IMG/VR virus record: IMGVR_UViG_3300010149_000245
Coordinates: 1-20,202 of that record
From: a virus
DNA length: 20,202 bases
Reading direction: 5' to 3' (one strand)
Shown here: one piece after another, positions 8,107 through 19,479 of the stretch
How positions within the stretch are numbered: position 1 is the first letter of the stretch
Layout: each line of letters starts with the position of its first letter
Notes under the pieces: model-generated
What the model was told of the DNA's origin: nothing
The model's database searches: none
The model's input: the letters and a program-made list of their open reading frames with translations, nothing else
Made by a program: the position numbers and the translations under genes

Positions 8107-8628
8107 TTAGGGTGTATCGTTGTAGTAGATATCATCAACACCTGTCAGAGAGACAGAGTAGTTGGCGATCTCATCTACGGAACCCGTGAGAGTCACCGTG
8201 TCGATCAGAGCCTGACCGATGAATTCTTCGGTAGAGCCAGTTTCACCCACGGACCACTTGACGACGACATACTTCTTATCGCGAGCGATTTTGAAGAGGT
8301 CGGTGCCAGCGTCGTTGGTGTCTTGGATGAGACCATCAGCCTGAACACTCCACGTCTGTGAGGTCTGCTGGAGCATACCCCCAGCTCCGTCGCGAGCGAC
8401 GTTCTCCACAGCGTTGCTCACCTCGATGACGCTGTTCGTGGCAGCGCCGACAAGAGTGAGAGTTGTAGTCACAGCACTAGTGGAGGTCGCAATACCGGTG
8501 AACTCGTCTCCGTTGACGACGAAGTCTCCGACGGTGTATGTAGATCCCGATGTGTCGAGTACGGGACGCTTAGACGTCGTCCCTTCGTAGTAGTAGATGG
8601 CTACGCAGTTAGCATTGATTACAGCCAT
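8107..8628 (-). CDS. Tail tube protein paralog 3 (173 aa)
   Basis: This is the shortest of three tandem homologous proteins. It shares the start (MAVINAN versus MSLLNAN), the central SQTWSVQADGLIQ segment, a KKYVVVKW strand and a FIGQALIDTVTLTGSVDE segment with the other two. The overall pattern matches major tail (tube) proteins of siphophages, which stack as hexamer rings. It lacks much of the N-terminal insertion seen in the other two, and its C-terminus diverges (GVDDIYYNDTP in place of an ATIRGYG ending). It is closest to the terminator and to the chaperone, the normal place of the major tail protein, so it may be the main tube subunit. Which paralog forms the tube cannot be decided from sequence. 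Confidence 0.82.
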   Translation of the reverse strand: MAVINANCVAIYYYEGTTSKRPVLDTSGSTYTVGDFVVNGDEFTGIATSTSAVTTTLTLVGAATNSVIEVSNAVENVARDGAGGMLQQTSQTWSVQADGLIQDTNDAGTDLFKIARDKKYVVVKWSVGETGSTEEFIGQALIDTVTLTGSVDEIANYSVSLTGVDDIYYNDTP

Positions 8629-8640
8629 GATATTCTAGTT

Positions 8641-9324
8641 TTAGTTATTGAATTTGTACAGTTTACCATAGCCGCGAATCGTGGCTGAGTAGGTTGAAGT
8701 GGAATCAAATGTTCCGGTGATGTTGGCGTTCTCAACAATGCCCTGGCCGATGTAGGTGATGTTTTGATCGTCTGTGCCAGTAGCTTCGTCATTGTCAATG
8801 TCCAACGTGTACTTAACGATTACGTAGTAACCGTAGTTGCACATATCGAAGATATCCGTTCCGTAAGAGTCATACGAGCCCGTATCACGGTCCTCGGAAG
8901 AAATCAAACCGTCGGCCTGGATACTCCAGCTCTGAGCCCCGATACTCGTATATGTGGCGGAGTTGCACTGGGTAGTCTTAGCCACGACTTCATCGGTAGC
9001 GTTGCTCAAGTCCAACGTAGAGTTGGTCGCAGCATAAGCCAGAGTAATCAAGGAATTTGCATTGACTACACCGTGAGGATCATTCGCCGGGTCCGATTCG
9101 ATATTGTTGTATCGGAAGATTGCGGGATCGGTTCCGACAGAGTGCATATCGCTCCCATTGACCATCATGATGATGTCGTTCAATGAGGCAGACGCATCAG
9201 CCTGAGCTTCAGAAACCGCGTTAGAATAAGAGGAGTTGTCGAAAATCTTGTACGGCGTGGTGCTGGAGTATTCGTGACTCTTCAGGACATAAACACCGAG
9301 GTTGTTTGCATTAAGTAGTGACAT
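8641..9324 (-). CDS. Tail tube protein paralog 2 (227 aa)
   Basis: It starts MSLLNANNLGVYV and shares a long block with paralog 1: DEVVAK, a Cys, TYTS, SWSIQADGLI, a D-rich loop, YVIVKYT, YIGQGIVENANITGTFDST and SATIRGYGKL. The 5' coding DNA is also nearly the same as in paralog 1 (ATGTCACTNCTTAATGCAAA), which points to tandem duplication. The fold should be the tail tube beta-barrel. An N-terminal insertion (about residues 25-95) differs fully from that of paralog 1 and may be surface exposed. The leader ends in CTTAAAACACATG with no Shine-Dalgarno sequence. It may be a second tube subunit, a decorating tube variant, or a tail-tip initiator ring. Confidence 0.82.
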   Translation of the reverse strand: MSLLNANNLGVYVLKSHEYSSTTPYKIFDNSSYSNAVSEAQADASASLNDIIMMVNGSDMHSVGTDPAIFRYNNIESDPANDPHGVVNANSLITLAYAATNSTLDLSNATDEVVAKTTQCNSATYTSIGAQSWSIQADGLISSEDRDTGSYDSYGTDIFDMCNYGYYVIVKYTLDIDNDEATGTDDQNITYIGQGIVENANITGTFDSTSTYSATIRGYGKLYKFNN

Positions 9325-9336
9325 GTGTTTTAAGTC

Positions 9337-10035
9337 TTAGTCGTTGTACCAAGTGAAGAGGTTGCCGTACCCACGAATCGTAGCGCTGTACGTTTGAGTT
9401 GAGTCGAAGCTACCGGTAAGAGAGATGCTTTCAATAAAGCCCTGACCCAAGTAGTTTACCCCGGATTCATAGTCTCCGATAGCATTCTGCTGATTGATGT
9501 TGGTGACGAAACGGACGACCACGTACTCTTTATTTCGAGCCAGGTCCATCAAGTTCGTGGCCCCGCGCTCAGTACCGGCGACAACACCCTGGATCAATCC
9601 ATCGCATTGGACAGTCCAAGAGGCAGCACCGAGGCTCGTGTAAGTCTCAGACTCACACTGAACACCCTTGGCTACGACCTCGTCTACAGTACGAGAGATG
9701 TCTATAGATGTGTTGGTGGCAGCAGCAGCGAGAGCGAGGTCGGCGGTGTAGTCTTCAAAGTCTGTGGCGCTACCAGAAGAGCCCAAGACCCTACCGAACG
9801 CAGGACGATCGTCTTCCGCACTACTAAGGTTAGTGTCGTCTTGCTGAAAGAGCTTCACCTTGTCGGAGGTTACGAGGAAGCCTACAGCGTTATTGCCTTC
9901 TGCATCGAAAAATGCTTCAACGGCTTCGTCAAAAGTGTCGGTGTTGTCGTCGCTGACGTACACCTTATAGGGTTCTGTCGATGAGGAGCCATCATAGACG
10001 TACAACCCCATGAAATTTGCATTAAGGAGTGACAT
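9337..10035 (-). CDS. Tail tube protein paralog 1 (232 aa)
   Basis: First of the three homologous tail proteins. Diagnostic segments are MSLLNANFMGLYVYDG, DEVVAKGVQCESETYTSLG, SWTVQCDGLIQ, KEYVVVRF, YLGQGFIESISLTGSFDST and ATIRGYGNLF. These correspond in order with paralog 2 and, more weakly, paralog 3. Its start overlaps the stop of the HK97 gp10-like gene as TAATG, so it is translationally coupled to the head-completion genes. In many siphophages the tail terminator gene sits at this junction; here it is absent and a DUF3168-like gene is found ahead of the terminase instead. The role as a tail tube or tube-like ring protein is inferred from order and sequence pattern. Confidence 0.82.
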   Translation of the reverse strand: MSLLNANFMGLYVYDGSSSTEPYKVYVSDDNTDTFDEAVEAFFDAEGNNAVGFLVTSDKVKLFQQDDTNLSSAEDDRPAFGRVLGSSGSATDFEDYTADLALAAAATNTSIDISRTVDEVVAKGVQCESETYTSLGAASWTVQCDGLIQGVVAGTERGATNLMDLARNKEYVVVRFVTNINQQNAIGDYESGVNYLGQGFIESISLTGSFDSTQTYSATIRGYGNLFTWYND

Positions 10036-10499: not shown

Positions 10500-10858
10500 C
10501 AGATGTTAGGATTAGTATCATTCTGATTGTCACGGCGACGGCCACGGACACGCATACCTTCGCGACGACCCACAGGCAGGATAGAGTAGACATTGAAGCG
10601 ACCGCCATTCCAAATGATCACATCATCGAAGCGGATGTCGCTAATCCATCGGCACTTGAATTCAGCCTTCATCTCACCCACGGTTTGGTCATCATCGCTA
10701 AACTCCGATGCTCCAGCCGAAGGGGTGCCCAGGTGAAGGATACTACAACGCACACCCTCTTTCCAAAGAGTCTCCTGCTCCACCGTATCACCCCAGTCAT
10801 TGATGGTGCGAGTCACGCGGTAGATGTCAATCTTCTCATGTAAGCTTCCTGCCTTCAT
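10499..10858 (-). CDS. Phage head-tail adaptor / head closure protein (119 aa)
   Basis: Length and pattern fit the head-tail joining family (SPP1 gp16 / HK97 gp7-like). Seen are an opening HEKIDIYRVTRTINDWGDTV, a central KCRWISDIRFDDVIIWNG strand pair and the FNVYSILPVGRREGMRV ending. In family members this small beta-barrel forms the ring that closes the portal channel beneath the connector. The C-terminus here is very basic (RGRRRDNQ). The start codon overlaps the connector stop as TAATG, and its own stop overlaps the next gene as TGATG, so connector, adaptor and gp10-like protein form one coupled set. Confidence 0.88.
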   Translation of the reverse strand: MKAGSLHEKIDIYRVTRTINDWGDTVEQETLWKEGVRCSILHLGTPSAGASEFSDDDQTVGEMKAEFKCRWISDIRFDDVIIWNGGRFNVYSILPVGRREGMRVRGRRRDNQNDTNPNI

Positions 10859-11886
10859 TAGAACTGACGTACACTTTGGATTAGACGGCGAACTCCCTCC
10901 TTCAACTCTGTCGTGATACCACCGATGTTCTCGGCTTCACGCATGTTGTAGTAGTGACCTACAAGCAGGAGGGCTGCTTGCTTGTATTGCTTGGGCAGAG
11001 ACATGAAGTCTGTCCCGGCCTTAAAGGTGAGCTTCCAAAAGTCTTCCTGCTCTTCGGCTGCGTCATCGAGGAGATCCACGCCCTTGCGGATGTCGATATG
11101 GATAGGGTAGCGAGCGGTGATGATGCGGTTGTCGAAGTCCATACCATCCGTCACCTCGTAGTAGCGGTAGTAAGTCTCAATCGTGGTATCGTCGTAGAGA
11201 GCTAGGAGCTTGATGCGGTACAGACCGACATTAAGAGTCACGTTCGTAAGCAAATCGCCATTGCCATCGGCAGAAAGCACCACGGGCGTCACTTGCGTGT
11301 CGGCTACATACCCTCCATCAGCAAAGGAGTACTTCTCCCATGTGTAGGTGAGATCCGTCAGGCCAGTCACCTCTCCAAACTTATCACTAGAGACATTCAG
11401 GGCGGCAACAGTGTAAGAGCCGTAGCTCGCCTCGTACACCACGGAGTTGCCCCAGCTCGACACCGCGCTGGCATCGTCAGCGTCGGGGACCTTAGAGTAT
11501 GGCTTGTAGTCCTTGCTCCAGGGACGCTCATCATCGGCGTCTTCGGAAAGGTAGTAGAGCTGGCCCAAAGAGGTCACGCCTTGGATGCCCGATACCGACA
11601 AGGGAAGCTTACTCTCGTCTTTGTTGATATACAGCTCCACCTCGTGCTCACCGAGCAAACGGTCGCTGAGGTTTTGCATGTAGTCCACAGCAGCTTCAAG
11701 GTAGATCAGCAACAGATCATCCTCCGAGTCGTCGATGGCACGGACATGGCTACGCATAAGCGCAGTCGCAGCAGCCTCCACCTCAGCCAGTGACTCACCC
11801 TCACCGGGGTTGTCCGTTACTGGTTCCTGAGCGTAGAAGAGGCGCAGTGCCTTCTCGGATGATAGTCGTGATACCTTTGTGTGCAT
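10858..11886 (-). CDS. gp6-like head-tail connector with large central insertion (342 aa)
   Basis: The ends match the gp6-like connector family that docks under the portal. The N-terminal helices are RAIDDSEDDLLLIYLEAAVD (residues 49-68); the C-terminal helices contain LPKQYKQAALLLVGHYYNMR (297-316) and a GVRRLIQSVRQF ending. Family members are usually about 100-190 residues. Here the core is split by extra beta-rich sequence (about 100-245) containing YTWEKYSFADGGY and TNVTLNVGLYRIKLLALYDD, possibly an Ig-like domain. I place the start at the ATG at 11886. A longer reading from a TTG at 11928 would run through the terminator hairpin and is unlikely. The adaptor gene follows with a TAATG overlap. 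Confidence 0.8.
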   Translation of the reverse strand: MHTKVSRLSSEKALRLFYAQEPVTDNPGEGESLAEVEAAATALMRSHVRAIDDSEDDLLLIYLEAAVDYMQNLSDRLLGEHEVELYINKDESKLPLSVSGIQGVTSLGQLYYLSEDADDERPWSKDYKPYSKVPDADDASAVSSWGNSVVYEASYGSYTVAALNVSSDKFGEVTGLTDLTYTWEKYSFADGGYVADTQVTPVVLSADGNGDLLTNVTLNVGLYRIKLLALYDDTTIETYYRYYEVTDGMDFDNRIITARYPIHIDIRKGVDLLDDAAEEQEDFWKLTFKAGTDFMSLPKQYKQAALLLVGHYYNMREAENIGGITTELKEGVRRLIQSVRQF

Positions 11887-11894
11887 GTAGAGAG

Positions 11895-11926
11895 ATAAAA
11901 GGGGGCCAGGCCATTTCCTAGCCCCC
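11895..11926 (-). terminator. Intrinsic terminator after the capsid gene
   Basis: In minus-strand RNA, GGGGGCTAGG (11917-11926) pairs with CCTGGCCCCC (11901-11910): 10 pairs with one U.G wobble and a 6-nt loop. TTTTAT follows at once. The hairpin lies between the protease-capsid stop (11952) and the connector start (11886). On the opposite strand the wobble becomes a C-A mismatch, so the minus-strand direction is favoured. Read-through must occur if no promoter lies downstream, because connector and tail genes are needed in smaller amounts. Confidence 0.82.
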
Positions 11927-11951
11927 AATTATTTTAGTTATTCAGGCAGCC

Positions 11952-13970
11952 TTACTCGGTTGCACCCATGTTCTTGAGACCCTGGAATCCATCACCCTGC
12001 AAAGTCTTGAAGGACTTGTAAGCATTGGCGATGATCCGCACGATGCCGTGGTTGGCATCAGTGTAAGGGTCAACCATGATGTTCAATCCACCCCAGTTAC
12101 CCATCACACACTGAGAAGCATCCACAAAGTGCATGCGACCTGTAGTCACTGATGAAGAAACGATGGTTTCGTACCCAATCACATTCAAGCGATCGAGTGG
12201 GCTAGTACCCATCAACATTCCTGAACCTGAGTCCAAGCTCAAAGTACGAGCCTTACGGAATGCTGCTGCTGAAGACAACACCTTGATGTTTGTCAAGTCA
12301 ACATCAGCTCCCAACAAAGCAGCCTCCAATGTGAGGGGGTTCACTTCAGTGCCAGTCTCGGCGTAAGCGTTAGAAGCTGCGCCAGAAGCAGTAGCGATTT
12401 CGGCTGCGATGTCTGCGTTGAACTTAGCCTCGACAGCCTTGCGGATATCTGCGGCCAAGAAAGCACCCATATCGTCAGCAGACTGAGCGAGCATCTGCTC
12501 AGTAACCTTGGTGTAGGCGCTGTAACGGTTAGGGTTCAAAGTAACAGCAGCGAAACCAGCAGCTTCGATTTCAGCGGTTGCACCTTCAGCAACTTTCTCA
12601 CCTTCGATTGCTGTGCCCTGAACCTGGAAAACCACGTCACCCGTGAGGTTGTTCAAAGTACGAGCTCCGAGCTGAGTACCGATGTCGCGAGGACGGAAGG
12701 CAGCTACGAGGCCAGCGTCCTGCTTACCGATAGCACCTCCGAAGGCGTCGACGTGAGCTTGACCTGTGCCAGCATTAGCGTCAGCGAGACCAAGGGCGCC
12801 GTCATCAACACGGAGAACCATAGAAGGAACAGAGAAACCTCCGCTCACGTTGATCTTAGAACTAGCAAACTCGCTGCGAGCTTCTTGGTTCATTTCGGCT
12901 TCGAGGCCGGTCAAGCGACCCTGTGCCGCTTCTTTAATTGCCTTACCAAAGCTGTAGCGCTTTGATACGTGCATTTCAGTATCGCCCAAACCCTGTACGT
13001 AGGCCGGGGCAGTTTTTTTCTTGTCTGACATTTGTTCAGATTTTGATTTTTGAGTACGAGCCTCCGGCTCTTTATTAGAAACTTGGCGTGGAACGAGTTC
13101 TCCGCCGGGCAGCCCGTAAGCATTAACTACGAGGTCTGGGTCTGCTAAAAGTACCTCGGTTTCTTTTGTGCGCTCTTCGTCTTCCTCTCCATCTTCCTCT
13201 TCCTCCTCCATACGCTCTTCGTCTTCTTCCTCTTCTTCAGATTCTTCCATACGCTCTTCGTCTTCTTCCTCCTCCTCTTCGCTGCCGTCCATGTATGCAC
13301 GGTCATCTTTTTCTTCCTCCTCCTCTTCTGAGCGTTGAACAGCGGGGATCACGTTGTTGCCTTCGCAACCACAGTCCTCTTTATCTGAAGAAGCCTCTTC
13401 GACTACGAGCTCCTCTTCGCGAACTTCTTCTTGTTCAATAGACATTACTTCTTCGTTTGCGAGAGCCAGCTCCATAGAGCGGAGTCCGACCTCTGTTGTA
13501 GGGTACGCACCTTGCGTCGTTGGGCTTACATCGAAAAGCAATCCTACTTCGGTGATGGTGCGAAGGTTGAGACCGTCATCACGACGTTCCCACTCGTCAC
13601 CCCGCACCGTGAAGCCGAAGCTGCTAGTCGATACATTACCCATGCGGATGTTCTCCGCAAGATCTCTGGCGTAGCTCTGGTTGCCAAGCTCGAAGCGATA
13701 CTTGAGTCCCCGTTCATCAACCTCAAGCAACAGGCCGCGACCCACGCGAGCGAGTGGCTGGTCAATGTTGTGGTTGAACAGAGCTACGGTATTACTCATG
13801 TCCGCCCCGTCAAAAGCTCCAGGAGCAACGCGCTCAACGAACTGACCCCCGATCTCAGTCTCGTCATTGAAGACAGCAGCGTAGCCTTCGACCACGTTTG
13901 GCTTGCCTTCCTCTGAACGGACCTCAACACTGGAGGACAGGAATCGCTTTTCTACGTTTTTCTGTGCCAT
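11952..13970 (-). CDS. Fused prohead protease - major capsid protein (672 aa)
   Basis: Residues 1-170 are an HK97-type prohead protease (peptidase S78/U35). Likely catalytic residues are His67 (ALFNHN), Ser117 (STSSFGF) and Glu141 (TITEVGLLFDVSPT). Residues 171-312 form a linker that is extremely acidic between about 213 and 270, with near-repeats of EEEEEDEERMEE and a CGC cluster near 200-202. Residues 314-672 are an HK97-fold capsid protein: a short helical segment, then SGGFSVPS (376-383), an E-loop-like region and TLNPNRYSAYTKVTEQML (477-494). Protease and capsid are normally separate genes. The mature capsid subunit probably begins near residue 370 after cleavage. An A-rich context before Met314 might allow free capsid protein to be made. 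The gene is followed by a terminator. Confidence 0.92.
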   Translation of the reverse strand: MAQKNVEKRFLSSSVEVRSEEGKPNVVEGYAAVFNDETEIGGQFVERVAPGAFDGADMSNTVALFNHNIDQPLARVGRGLLLEVDERGLKYRFELGNQSYARDLAENIRMGNVSTSSFGFTVRGDEWERRDDGLNLRTITEVGLLFDVSPTTQGAYPTTEVGLRSMELALANEEVMSIEQEEVREEELVVEEASSDKEDCGCEGNNVIPAVQRSEEEEEEKDDRAYMDGSEEEEEEDEERMEESEEEEEDEERMEEEEEDGEEDEERTKETEVLLADPDLVVNAYGLPGGELVPRQVSNKEPEARTQKSKSEQMSDKKKTAPAYVQGLGDTEMHVSKRYSFGKAIKEAAQGRLTGLEAEMNQEARSEFASSKINVSGGFSVPSMVLRVDDGALGLADANAGTGQAHVDAFGGAIGKQDAGLVAAFRPRDIGTQLGARTLNNLTGDVVFQVQGTAIEGEKVAEGATAEIEAAGFAAVTLNPNRYSAYTKVTEQMLAQSADDMGAFLAADIRKAVEAKFNADIAAEIATASGAASNAYAETGTEVNPLTLEAALLGADVDLTNIKVLSSAAAFRKARTLSLDSGSGMLMGTSPLDRLNVIGYETIVSSSVTTGRMHFVDASQCVMGNWGGLNIMVDPYTDANHGIVRIIANAYKSFKTLQGDGFQGLKNMGATE
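13029..13055 (-). promoter_or_regulatory. Candidate internal translation start for free capsid protein
   Basis: Met314 (ATG at 13029-13031) is preceded by CAAAAATCAAAATCTGAACA, far more A-rich than the surrounding code and like the SD-less leaders of the other genes here. Starting at this codon gives a 359-residue protein, MSDKKKTAPAYV..., a normal length for an HK97-fold capsid protein with a short N-terminal extension. The alternative is that the Lys/Ser-rich linker simply uses A-rich codons. Confidence 0.35.
13161..13334 (-). repeat. Degenerate repeats encoding an acidic linker
   Basis: The DNA holds near-tandem copies of a GAG/GAA/GAC-rich unit. On the plus strand the core CGCTCTTCGTCTTC recurs starting at 13171, 13213 and 13252 (spacings 42 and 39 bp), and a 25-bp stretch is identical in the last two copies. 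It encodes repeats of EEEEEDEERMEE between protease and capsid domains. Spacings that are multiples of three fit in-frame expansion by slippage or unequal recombination. Confidence 0.8.
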
Positions 13971-13977
13971 CGTTGGG

Positions 13978-14760
13978 TTATTTAGTACTCAGTGGGTGGC
14001 CCTTCGGGAACAAGTCCGTATCGTGCTTTCCACTGCGAAACTTTTCATTTCTAAGGGCATACAGGAATGAGTTCACACGAGCGTATGCCCACTGCTCGGG
14101 TGACTTTACGTTAGGCCGGACAGATCCGGGGTTAGTCTTATAGGCTCCGACACCGCGCTTGAAGACAGCGGTGAGGGTGCGGAGGTTCGTCTTCTTAGTG
14201 GGGGCCGTGACCTTTTCGTTGTGATCCTCCACTTTCTTTTTGAGACCTTCCTTTACAGCCCCTGTGACCTCGGAACGGCTATCACCCGTGGCATCGTCAT
14301 GGGTGCTGCATGCCATATACACCTTCTCGCCTTCGAGCTCGTGCTCATGGTATCCGGTGCATCCGATAGACTCAGCATGAGCCAGGGCTGCCTCTGGGGA
14401 GTCGAATACGGGGGATCCGTCAATCTCGCCTACCTTGGCACGGCCCTCGGCCTTGTTGATCACTCCACTGCACCAGCTACGCATAGTGGTTCCACCCCAA
14501 GCTGCATACATGATGCTGCCGCAGATCTCCTTTTCATTGTCGTCAAAGAACTTACCCTGATTGTAAGTCTCCGCTCGGGATAGGAAAGAGAAAGTCCTCT
14601 TCACCGTAGATAGGCTAAGCTTCTCTCCGGAGGCCAACTGATTTGCTCGCTGCCAACCGACGGCGGTTCCACACTTCGTTCCGTTTTTCTCACGGTGGCG
14701 CAGGGCACGCCGAGCGGCTGCCTTAGCTGTATCTGGATATCCACCGTAAGTCTTAGCCAT
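13978..14760 (-). CDS. Three-module capsid-region protein of unknown function (260 aa)
   Basis: Three blocks recur, from memory, next to head maturation proteases in other phages. Residues 12-100 contain GTAVGWQRANQLASGEKLSL, an SFLSRAE segment and a YAAWGG motif. Residues 115-155 hold a Cys/His motif, GCTGYHEHELEGEKVYMACSTH (C134, H138, H140, C151, H154), which could bind a metal. Residues 195-250 hold FKRGVGAYKTNPGSVRPNV and QWAYARVNSFL, resembling the domain I know as DUF5824. No catalytic function is established to my knowledge. The gene lies between portal and protease-capsid genes, with its start overlapping the upstream stop (TGATG). A role in head assembly, internal head contents or early infection is possible. 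Confidence 0.7.
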   Translation of the reverse strand: MAKTYGGYPDTAKAAARRALRHREKNGTKCGTAVGWQRANQLASGEKLSLSTVKRTFSFLSRAETYNQGKFFDDNEKEICGSIMYAAWGGTTMRSWCSGVINKAEGRAKVGEIDGSPVFDSPEAALAHAESIGCTGYHEHELEGEKVYMACSTHDDATGDSRSEVTGAVKEGLKKKVEDHNEKVTAPTKKTNLRTLTAVFKRGVGAYKTNPGSVRPNVKSPEQWAYARVNSFLYALRNEKFRSGKHDTDLFPKGHPLSTK

Positions 14761-15179
14761 CAGACGAGGTTCTTAGCTGTCAAGTTGGTGACAGCACCAG
14801 CGGCATCATTGTCAGAAAATCCGATTTCGTGACGCAAGACGTCCTTGCCAATTCTCTGGTACCACACTCCCTCAGTGGCAACAGTAGAATCGTCACCGGA
14901 AGAACCGAGCGAATTATTTACAGCAACATACCATGGCTTGCTGCTGGAGGTGTCAATCTTACTGACTAGAGTAGCTTCACTCGCCGCCATATTAACCTGC
15001 AATTCTCCGATAAGCTCGAAAAGTGCGCTCGCAGGATTTGCTTCTGTAACTGTTGTTGTGTATTCGTAAACAGGGCGGAACGGTACACTATTGTCGACAA
15101 AGTCGTTATTGCCAACAGCAGCAGTGTCATGTTTGCCTCTGCAGCTTACGATTTTATACTTGTAGAAATAATCAGCCAT
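14760..15179 (-). CDS. Uncharacterised head-module protein (139 aa)
   Basis: I do not recognise the family. The protein starts MADYFYKYKIVSCRGKHDTA and appears mainly beta, with an ETNP-like loop region (VTEANPASALFELIGELQVN) and Ser/Thr/Asn-rich stretches. There is no signal peptide or membrane segment. It overlaps the portal stop by 8 nt at its start and the next gene by a TGATG junction at its end, so it is firmly built into the head operon. Its location between portal and maturation genes would fit a minor head, decoration or internal protein. The start ATG has a GAAGAAA stretch just upstream, which looks A-rich and not a true Shine-Dalgarno sequence. Confidence 0.75.
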   Translation of the reverse strand: MADYFYKYKIVSCRGKHDTAAVGNNDFVDNSVPFRPVYEYTTTVTEANPASALFELIGELQVNMAASEATLVSKIDTSSSKPWYVAVNNSLGSSGDDSTVATEGVWYQRIGKDVLRHEIGFSDNDAAGAVTNLTAKNLV

Positions 15180-18203: not shown

Positions 18204-18685
18204 TAAATCAAATCGTCAATCTCGTCGCCCTCTTGGGATTTGTCATTGGCGCTACTAGCGTTGGCCGCCGCCCCTAGGATACGGCTGCGGTCCATGGGAC
18301 TGAGCCCCAGCTTGGCACTGAGCTTGAGCACCTGATCCTGAGCCTTCGACAAGGCGGTAAACGCCCCACTAACATTTGATGTTCCGTTAGGGTAAACCTG
18401 GATAGCGTCTCCAAACCCATGCACATGACGAGCAACAGCGATATAGATTGCAAGGCTTTTCGCAAGCATAGTGACGGTGATAACATCAACTGATTCGATT
18501 AGACCTCGGTCGTTGAGGTAGTTCACCACAATTTCAAAGAGGCGGTTGCCGTCATCGTCCAACTGGAAGATGGGCTTCAGGTCCTTGGAGCCGATCTTAT
18601 TGATGGCGTTCTTTACGTCGTCACCTTCCTTGCTATTATTAAGCTGCTCTACGGCAGCCTTCATACGGTCTAGTGTATCTGACAT
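18203..18685 (-). CDS. terS: Terminase small subunit, P27-like (160 aa)
   Basis: The small subunit recognises the packaging start site and hands the DNA to the large subunit. Family evidence is the helical N-terminus, the central FEIVVNYLNDRGLIESVDV region and the C-terminal KLGLSPMDRSRILGAAA segment, a P27-family hallmark. The ending is acidic (QEGDEIDDLI). I place the start at the ATG at 18685, which overlaps the upstream stop as TGATG; a GTG at 18721 would overlap the upstream gene by 37 nt and looks wrong. It is immediately followed by the large subunit. Confidence 0.88.
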   Translation of the reverse strand: MSDTLDRMKAAVEQLNNSKEGDDVKNAINKIGSKDLKPIFQLDDDGNRLFEIVVNYLNDRGLIESVDVITVTMLAKSLAIYIAVARHVHGFGDAIQVYPNGTSNVSGAFTALSKAQDQVLKLSAKLGLSPMDRSRILGAAANASSANDKSQEGDEIDDLI

Positions 18686-19479
18686 CAGGCGTGAAGATTG
18701 TGGTAGTTCCAGATGCGCCACCCATACACCGTGCCACTGGTTTTTAGAGCTACTAGCGTGATACAGGCATTGCTTCTGTTGAGTTGGTAACCTTGAGAAT
18801 TCTGAACATGCTCCGATGAGCCCGAAGCCTTGGTTAGACTTATGGTGTAATTGCTGTCAAGCTGGCCGCCAGTAAAAATGGTGAAGATCTTACCGAGATT
18901 CTCCTGTGCGAGCGGCAACTCGAAAGTGTGTGACGAAGAACCACCTTGCACCTGAACCATGTCCAGAAAGTAAACCTGCTCATTGAGGTCAGCAACGGTA
19001 GTTGCATTTGGTTGAAGCTTATACATGGTCTTGACCTTCATGTGGTCGGCCCCCTGGAATGCCGGGCTCAAGAACACGGTGTCGGTGGTATCCACGCCAG
19101 TATCCATCTCCCACATCACTGTGACGTAGCCTTGGTGGATGTTGTCCACGTCTACGAAGTAACGCTCATCGAAAAGACGGATACGGAAGTTGGAGCTGTT
19201 TGCCGCAAGCATAGCAAGCTTGACCTGATCATGGATCGCAGTACACTCGCGGGCGCTCTTATGGAATACCGTGATGTCGACACGATAGGTGGTGGCGGCA
19301 GCATAGCTCTGCGTCACGGGTTCGTAGTCTACATTTCCAAGCGTGACCGTAAGGCCAGGCATTTGATCGCGCTGCGGGCGACGAGCGAAAGTTATCTTGT
19401 CTGCGGGTAGCAGGTCAGTCAGACCAGAGTAACTGATGAGGGCGCTGCGGACTTCCTGCAGCAAAGTGCTCATACTCAT
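18685..19479 (-). CDS. DUF3168-like tail terminator fused to a C-terminal beta domain (264 aa)
   Basis: Residues 1-126 resemble tail terminator/completion proteins of the DUF3168 type. Seen are LQEVRSALISYSGLTDLLPA, a PGLTVTLGNV strand, YRVDITVFHKS and a long helix after it, with a closing YVTVMWEMD strand. Such proteins cap the tail tube before joining the head. Residues 150-264 are extra; NLGKIFTIFTGG, NYTISLTKASG and CITLVALKTSG followed by YGWRIWN resemble beta domains at the ends of phage fibre proteins. The gene is out of its usual place, between HNH and terminase genes. Its ATG overlaps the HNH stop (ATGA). Confidence in the gene is high; in the terminator assignment, moderate. Confidence 0.65.
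   Translation of the reverse strand: MSMSTLLQEVRSALISYSGLTDLLPADKITFARRPQRDQMPGLTVTLGNVDYEPVTQSYAAATTYRVDITVFHKSARECTAIHDQVKLAMLAANSSNFRIRLFDERYFVDVDNIHQGYVTVMWEMDTGVDTTDTVFLSPAFQGADHMKVKTMYKLQPNATTVADLNEQVYFLDMVQVQGGSSSHTFELPLAQENLGKIFTIFTGGQLDSNYTISLTKASGSSEHVQNSQGYQLNRSNACITLVALKTSGTVYGWRIWNYHNLHA

Follow-up and report, generated by a model that had tools for sequence, protein, structure and literature searches.

It has long been asked how a phage brings the right, small number of protease molecules into the closed prohead. The question arises again with a marine phage gene in which prohead protease and capsid protein share one reading frame, and where one has to ask whether the entire capsid supply is made in fusion with the protease. 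The gene lies on a viral contig record of 20.2 kb (20,202 nucleotides, in the following called the window), whose main genes are all on the minus strand and code for an HNH endonuclease, the terminase subunits, a portal protein, the fusion, connector proteins, tail proteins and a tape measure protein. All positions given below refer to features on the minus strand. The fusion gene itself extends over positions 11952–13970 and encodes 672 amino acids in the order protease, linker and capsid, with no internal stop codon.

Protease and capsid protein in one frame

Scans of viral contigs yielded 102 fusion loci including the window; 78 of their ORFs are distinct and form 38 clusters at 80% identity. 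The N-terminal domain (residues 14–167, positions 13470–13931) is a prohead protease of family S78 as judged by the Pfam profile Peptidase_S78 (PF04586, E = 2.1e-40, 139 bits at a curated cut-off of 21) and the NCBIfam profile proheadase_HK97 (E = 3.3e-26). In the alignment to HK97 gp4, His67 corresponds to H65 and Ser117 to S114, and both residues are conserved (76/76 and 78/78, respectively). An earlier note on this DNA had listed His67, Ser117 and Glu141 for the protease domain. Whereas the first two hold, Glu141 has to be rejected as the catalytic acid because a Glu is present in only 44 of the 78 ORFs. The invariant acid is Asp147 (78/78), which stands opposite a Glu of HK97 gp4 in the alignment.

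The C-terminal half is a capsid protein of the HK97 fold. Residues 433–649 (positions 12024–12674) match Phage_capsid of Pfam (PF05065, E = 4.8e-14, 52.9 bits, cut-off 24.2) and major_cap_HK97 of NCBIfam (E = 6.6e-9). A Foldseek search with the AlphaFold model (mean pLDDT 61.5) likewise retrieved HK97-fold capsid proteins, with 8gta from the marine siphophage R4C as the best match (E = 3.4e-11). Further upstream the alignments reveal a conserved N-terminal capsid block at residues 321–377 (positions 12840–13010). The major head protein families PHROG 617 and 2263 align across both halves of the ORF; thus fused families are already contained in PHROGs.

The protease–capsid frame is uninterrupted in all 78 distinct ORFs despite their differing linker lengths. 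They include a contig nearly identical to the window (L041, 96% identity) as well as many diverged sequences, and an assembly or sequencing join, which the earlier note had wished to see checked, is therefore excluded. Its description of the two proteins as one polypeptide is borne out by the ORF, the profile matches and the relatives. We saw no second capsid gene in four related contigs of 37–44 kb, each of which contains a single capsid match.

Several observations concern the neighboring genes. Directly 3′ to the capsid stop codon is a terminator-like hairpin (positions 11901–11926) with a stem of 10 bp followed by TTTT. The connector ORF of 356 aa (positions 10858–11928) is listed with a TTG start that falls within this hairpin, and the true start is probably an ATG further downstream (MHTKVSR). 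Between portal and fusion gene, where HK97 has none, there are two genes of unassigned function (positions 13978–15179), one of them weakly similar to DUF5824; a separate scaffold may be encoded there. Three adjacent paralogues at positions 8107–10035 all match the major tail protein family phrog_1407. The first two share 38% identity, and the identity to the third amounts to 35% over 132 residues; we regard them as a tandem triplication of tail-tube-like genes. Finally, an unusual location 5′ to the terminase genes (positions 18685–19479) is taken by a gene for a gp17-like tail completion domain that is extended at its C-terminus.

A variable linker

Protease and capsid part are separated by an acidic, Glu-rich linker of about 140 residues (residues 173–313, positions 13032–13454), which is variable in the alignment and ranges from 25 to 143 residues among the relatives. 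Tandem Repeats Finder detects a 39-bp tandem repeat at positions 13171–13292 which makes up the Glu-rich part, and the variation in linker length is consistent with repeat expansion. The earlier note considered the linker as a scaffold. This is possible, and on the fusion copies the acidic linker may indeed be a source of scaffold; an obligatory scaffold is not supported, as only 25–30 residues lie between protease and internal Met in the group L058–L065, where the linker is nearly absent.

A probable internal start in front of the capsid protein

Already in the first alignment one invariant Met stood out within a variable stretch. In all 78 ORFs, and thus in all 38 clusters, an ATG is found 3–7 codons 5′ to the first conserved capsid motif (APA..Q or variants thereof). 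In the window this is Met314 at nucleotide 13031. Translation from here would yield a separate major capsid protein of 359 aa (positions 11952–13031), the very size that the earlier note had named. Counted from the internal ATG the capsid length is 336–370 aa in 69 complete ORFs listed and 444 aa in L107. The capsid protein is hence of nearly constant length while the linker varies between 25 and 143 codons, which supports an internal start.

The sequence in front of this ATG argues for the same. It is preceded by an A-rich and G-poor leader (positions 13032–13057) which at the same time is in-frame coding sequence. The 24 nt before the internal ATG contain 45% A and 7% G, to be compared with 52% A and 10% G before the first Met of the ORFs, with 25% A and 30% G before 1214 other in-frame Met codons and with 25% A and 29% G upstream of 1040 out-of-frame ATGs. 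The region from −24 to +12 is also less structured, the mean folding energy being −2.8 kcal/mol at the internal ATG versus −6.0 kcal/mol at other Met codons. Measured against the first Met and the other Met codons of these genes, the internal ATG looks like a real start.

One could object that the fusion is meaningful and the internal Met is not: the whole capsid supply would be made as the 672-aa fusion, with one protease per subunit, and would be released by self-cleavage, Met314 being a mere part of the propeptide. That all capsid comes from the fusion is the premise of the earlier note. The single continuous frame without an in-frame stop in 78 ORFs speaks for this explanation, and the description of the MD8-like phages also assumes that protease, scaffold and capsid arise as a single gene product (PMC8508860). 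It leaves unexplained, however, why an invariant Met sits amid variable residues, why the leader is G-poor and unstructured and why codons upstream of it are conserved. Moreover, by rough geometry from general knowledge, a prohead of HK97 size would be crowded if it had to take up an additional domain of 35 kDa more than 400 times. In view of the conserved ATG at codon 314 we consider this explanation unlikely.

The opposite objection would be that only the separate products matter: a stop between two genes would have been lost recently, the fusion would arise by readthrough and do no harm, and the start signals would be remnants. There are indeed relatives with split, overlapping genes (L033, L034, L036, L114 and L125). 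But the frame has been kept in 78 ORFs despite in-frame length changes, and with a mean capsid identity of 48% between clusters the event would not be recent. The stop codons are particularly telling. Among 780 codons from the final 30 nt before the internal ATG there is no in-frame stop, as opposed to 140 of 780 in frame +2, and the whole linker is likewise free of in-frame stops (0/7884). The frame is thus kept open and the fusion form is probably translated; a recent loss of the stop appears very improbable to us. The best explanation for an AT-rich leader devoid of in-frame stops is that two constraints act on it, one as translation start and one as coding sequence.

A hairpin upstream of the leader

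Immediately 5′ to the leader the window contains the hairpin GAGCC(GGA)GGCTC (positions 13058–13070), which is conserved at the codon level in many relatives. In most of the 78 ORFs some hairpin precedes the leader. Ala304 is encoded by GCT in 27/27 clusters and Pro302 by CCG in 17/23, and Pro302 and Ala304 are the second and fourth most codon-biased of 315 columns. Most of the relatives found first have the same hairpin or GAGCC(AACCGA)GGCTC; others have variants at the same place, for instance CGAG(GAAA)CTCG, GAGC(GTTCA)GCTC and GGTGC(CGTTC)GCACC. The mean folding z-score is only −1.25 and values below −1.5 are reached in only 12 of 38 clusters. The stem pairs hardly vary and covariation support is therefore weak. 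In some other relatives the hairpin is replaced or weak, and the group L058–L065, with almost no linker, lacks it; the internal ATG is the same there, but its leader is rich in C and A. We therefore treat the hairpin as a secondary feature; our guess is that it holds the leader open or marks an RNA 5′ end.

The latter thought can be taken further. Hairpin and leader might work first at the level of the RNA, for instance as a processing site or because a second mRNA, transcribed from an internal promoter, begins there. Such a mechanism overlaps with an internal translation start, for it also gives two products and capsid translation would follow the RNA event. That the stem is kept while the loop goes from 3 to 6 nt suits an RNA structure better than a spaced protein-binding site. 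On the other hand, a scan for sigma-70-type promoters, the only types covered, found no promoter-like site on this strand, and no Rfam family matches. We grant an RNA-level mechanism a modest chance of being correct.

Split relatives and apparent exchange of capsid modules

At nine loci, which come from viral contigs and from bacterial genomes, protease and capsid protein are encoded by separate genes. The named genomes among them include a Flavobacteriales MAG, Algoriphagus, Belliella and Pontibacter. Most gene starts of the window lack a Shine–Dalgarno sequence, which together with these genomes suggests a host from the Bacteroidota. Compared with the product starting at Met314, the capsid proteins of the split relatives have about 60 extra N-terminal residues before the shared block. 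Should the short product be the main capsid protein, its scaffold-like region would be shortened.

Between clusters the protease is on average 77% identical and the capsid 48%, with a correlation of 0.33; L028 and L008 share 94% in the protease and 38% in the capsid. It is as if capsid modules had been swapped near the internal start.

A model for protease delivery

We suggest that the gene is a head gene with two starts which supplies free capsid protein and protease-tagged capsid protein from one frame, and we consider this probable. Translation from Met1 would give the 672-aa fusion of protease, linker and capsid, and translation from the ATG at Met314 would give the free 359-aa capsid protein. 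The free protein would be the bulk subunit of the shell. The fusion would be a minor form which co-assembles by means of its capsid half and so brings the protease into the prohead, where the protease then could free itself and cut the capsid N-termini. By analogy with HK97 a cleavage near residue 370 is plausible; a profile alignment intended to place the HK97 cleavage site was not significant. From the frame, its conservation, the internal ATG and the leader, which are read directly from the sequence, we infer that both products are made, as well as their ratio, their co-assembly and the cleavage site. What weighs against the proposal is the hairpin, which is missing in the L058 group, replaced or weak in other relatives and weakly supported by covariation, and also the roughly 60 N-terminal residues from the scaffold-like region of the split relatives which a capsid protein beginning at Met314 would lack.

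If the proposal is right, fusion and free capsid protein from one gene would be a simple answer to the problem of protease delivery. Hundreds of genes annotated as single capsid–protease fusions would then need a second start site, and the primary capsid product now assigned to such genes would have the wrong size.

Comparison with known systems

The fusion alone is not new. Protease–capsid fusions have been published for the Arthrobacter phage clusters AM, AU and AN and Rhodococcus phage RRH1 (PMC5513430) and for thaumarchaeal proviruses (PMC6563490); in MD8 protease, presumed scaffold and capsid are encoded by one gene, for which one gene product was assumed (PMC8508860). Known fusions are also found in Gordonia and Streptomyces phages. 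The earlier note called such fusions known but unusual. Known they are, but not very unusual, as in a phage collection 243 of 50,697 records match Circum gp12 over 80% or more of its length. For fusions of this kind the literature that we searched, which is largely open access, contains no report of an internal capsid start, here well supported by sequence comparison.

Might the known fusions have such a start as well? In the Circum type a start codon (9 ATG, 1 GTG) occupies one alignment column in 10 of 11 sequences. From this codon 358–437 aa remain (413–437 in nine of them), and the N-terminal part ranges from 234 to 396. With start positions picked after inspection of the sequences, the mean anti-Shine–Dalgarno energy at the boundary start is −7.2 kcal/mol versus −3.0 kcal/mol at other in-frame ATGs in the Circum type, −5.6 versus −1.7 in the Maggie type and −6.8 versus −1.5 in the MD8 type. 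The boundary Met is residue 242 in Circum and residue 160 in Maggie. P118 and Emperor have no clear candidate for a boundary start. A strong Shine–Dalgarno sequence and a start thus seem to occur at the equivalent boundary in three unrelated fusion families, which we take as a lead rather than a test. We give an even chance to the idea that the fusion genes of four or more unrelated phage lineages each consist of two genes sharing a frame, where an internal start would yield most of the capsid protein and the fusion would serve as low-copy carrier of the protease into the prohead; in the marine group of the window this start would be set off by the conserved hairpin and the A-rich, likewise coding leader.

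Circum gp12, Maggie gp7 and their relatives resemble the window gene in that an S78-type protease and an HK97-type capsid protein are encoded by one gene with a boundary start. They belong, however, to other sequence families, have a Shine–Dalgarno sequence instead of an A-rich leader and have been presented simply as fusions (PMC5513430). MD8-like gp5 also combines protease and capsid in one gene and has Met220 with a Shine–Dalgarno sequence after the protease in 5/5 cases. Here, in contrast, the protease is of the ClpP type, the capsid protein belongs to Phage_capsid_4 and the internal start precedes the presumed scaffold region. HK97 gp4/gp5 and gp11/gp12 of Cellulophaga phage phi39:1 have the same protease family and capsid fold, but as separate genes.

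Two further systems are alike in layout. In phage lambda, Nu3 is made from an in-frame start inside the protease gene C. Protease and scaffold are found within one gene (PMC8508860), and, as proposed for the window gene, this is a protease gene with an internal start; the short product is a scaffold, however, and the protease is from another family. The herpesvirus pair UL26/UL26.5 consists of a long protease-bearing and a short product, in frame and with a shared C-terminus (PMC4498786), but UL26.5 is a scaffold and the protease is unrelated. The window gene has what marks a nested in-frame pair, a conserved internal ATG (78/78) with start-like composition and folding. It is nevertheless not a member of the C/Nu3 or UL26/UL26.5 pairs, as the short product would be the capsid protein, which here takes the place of the scaffold.
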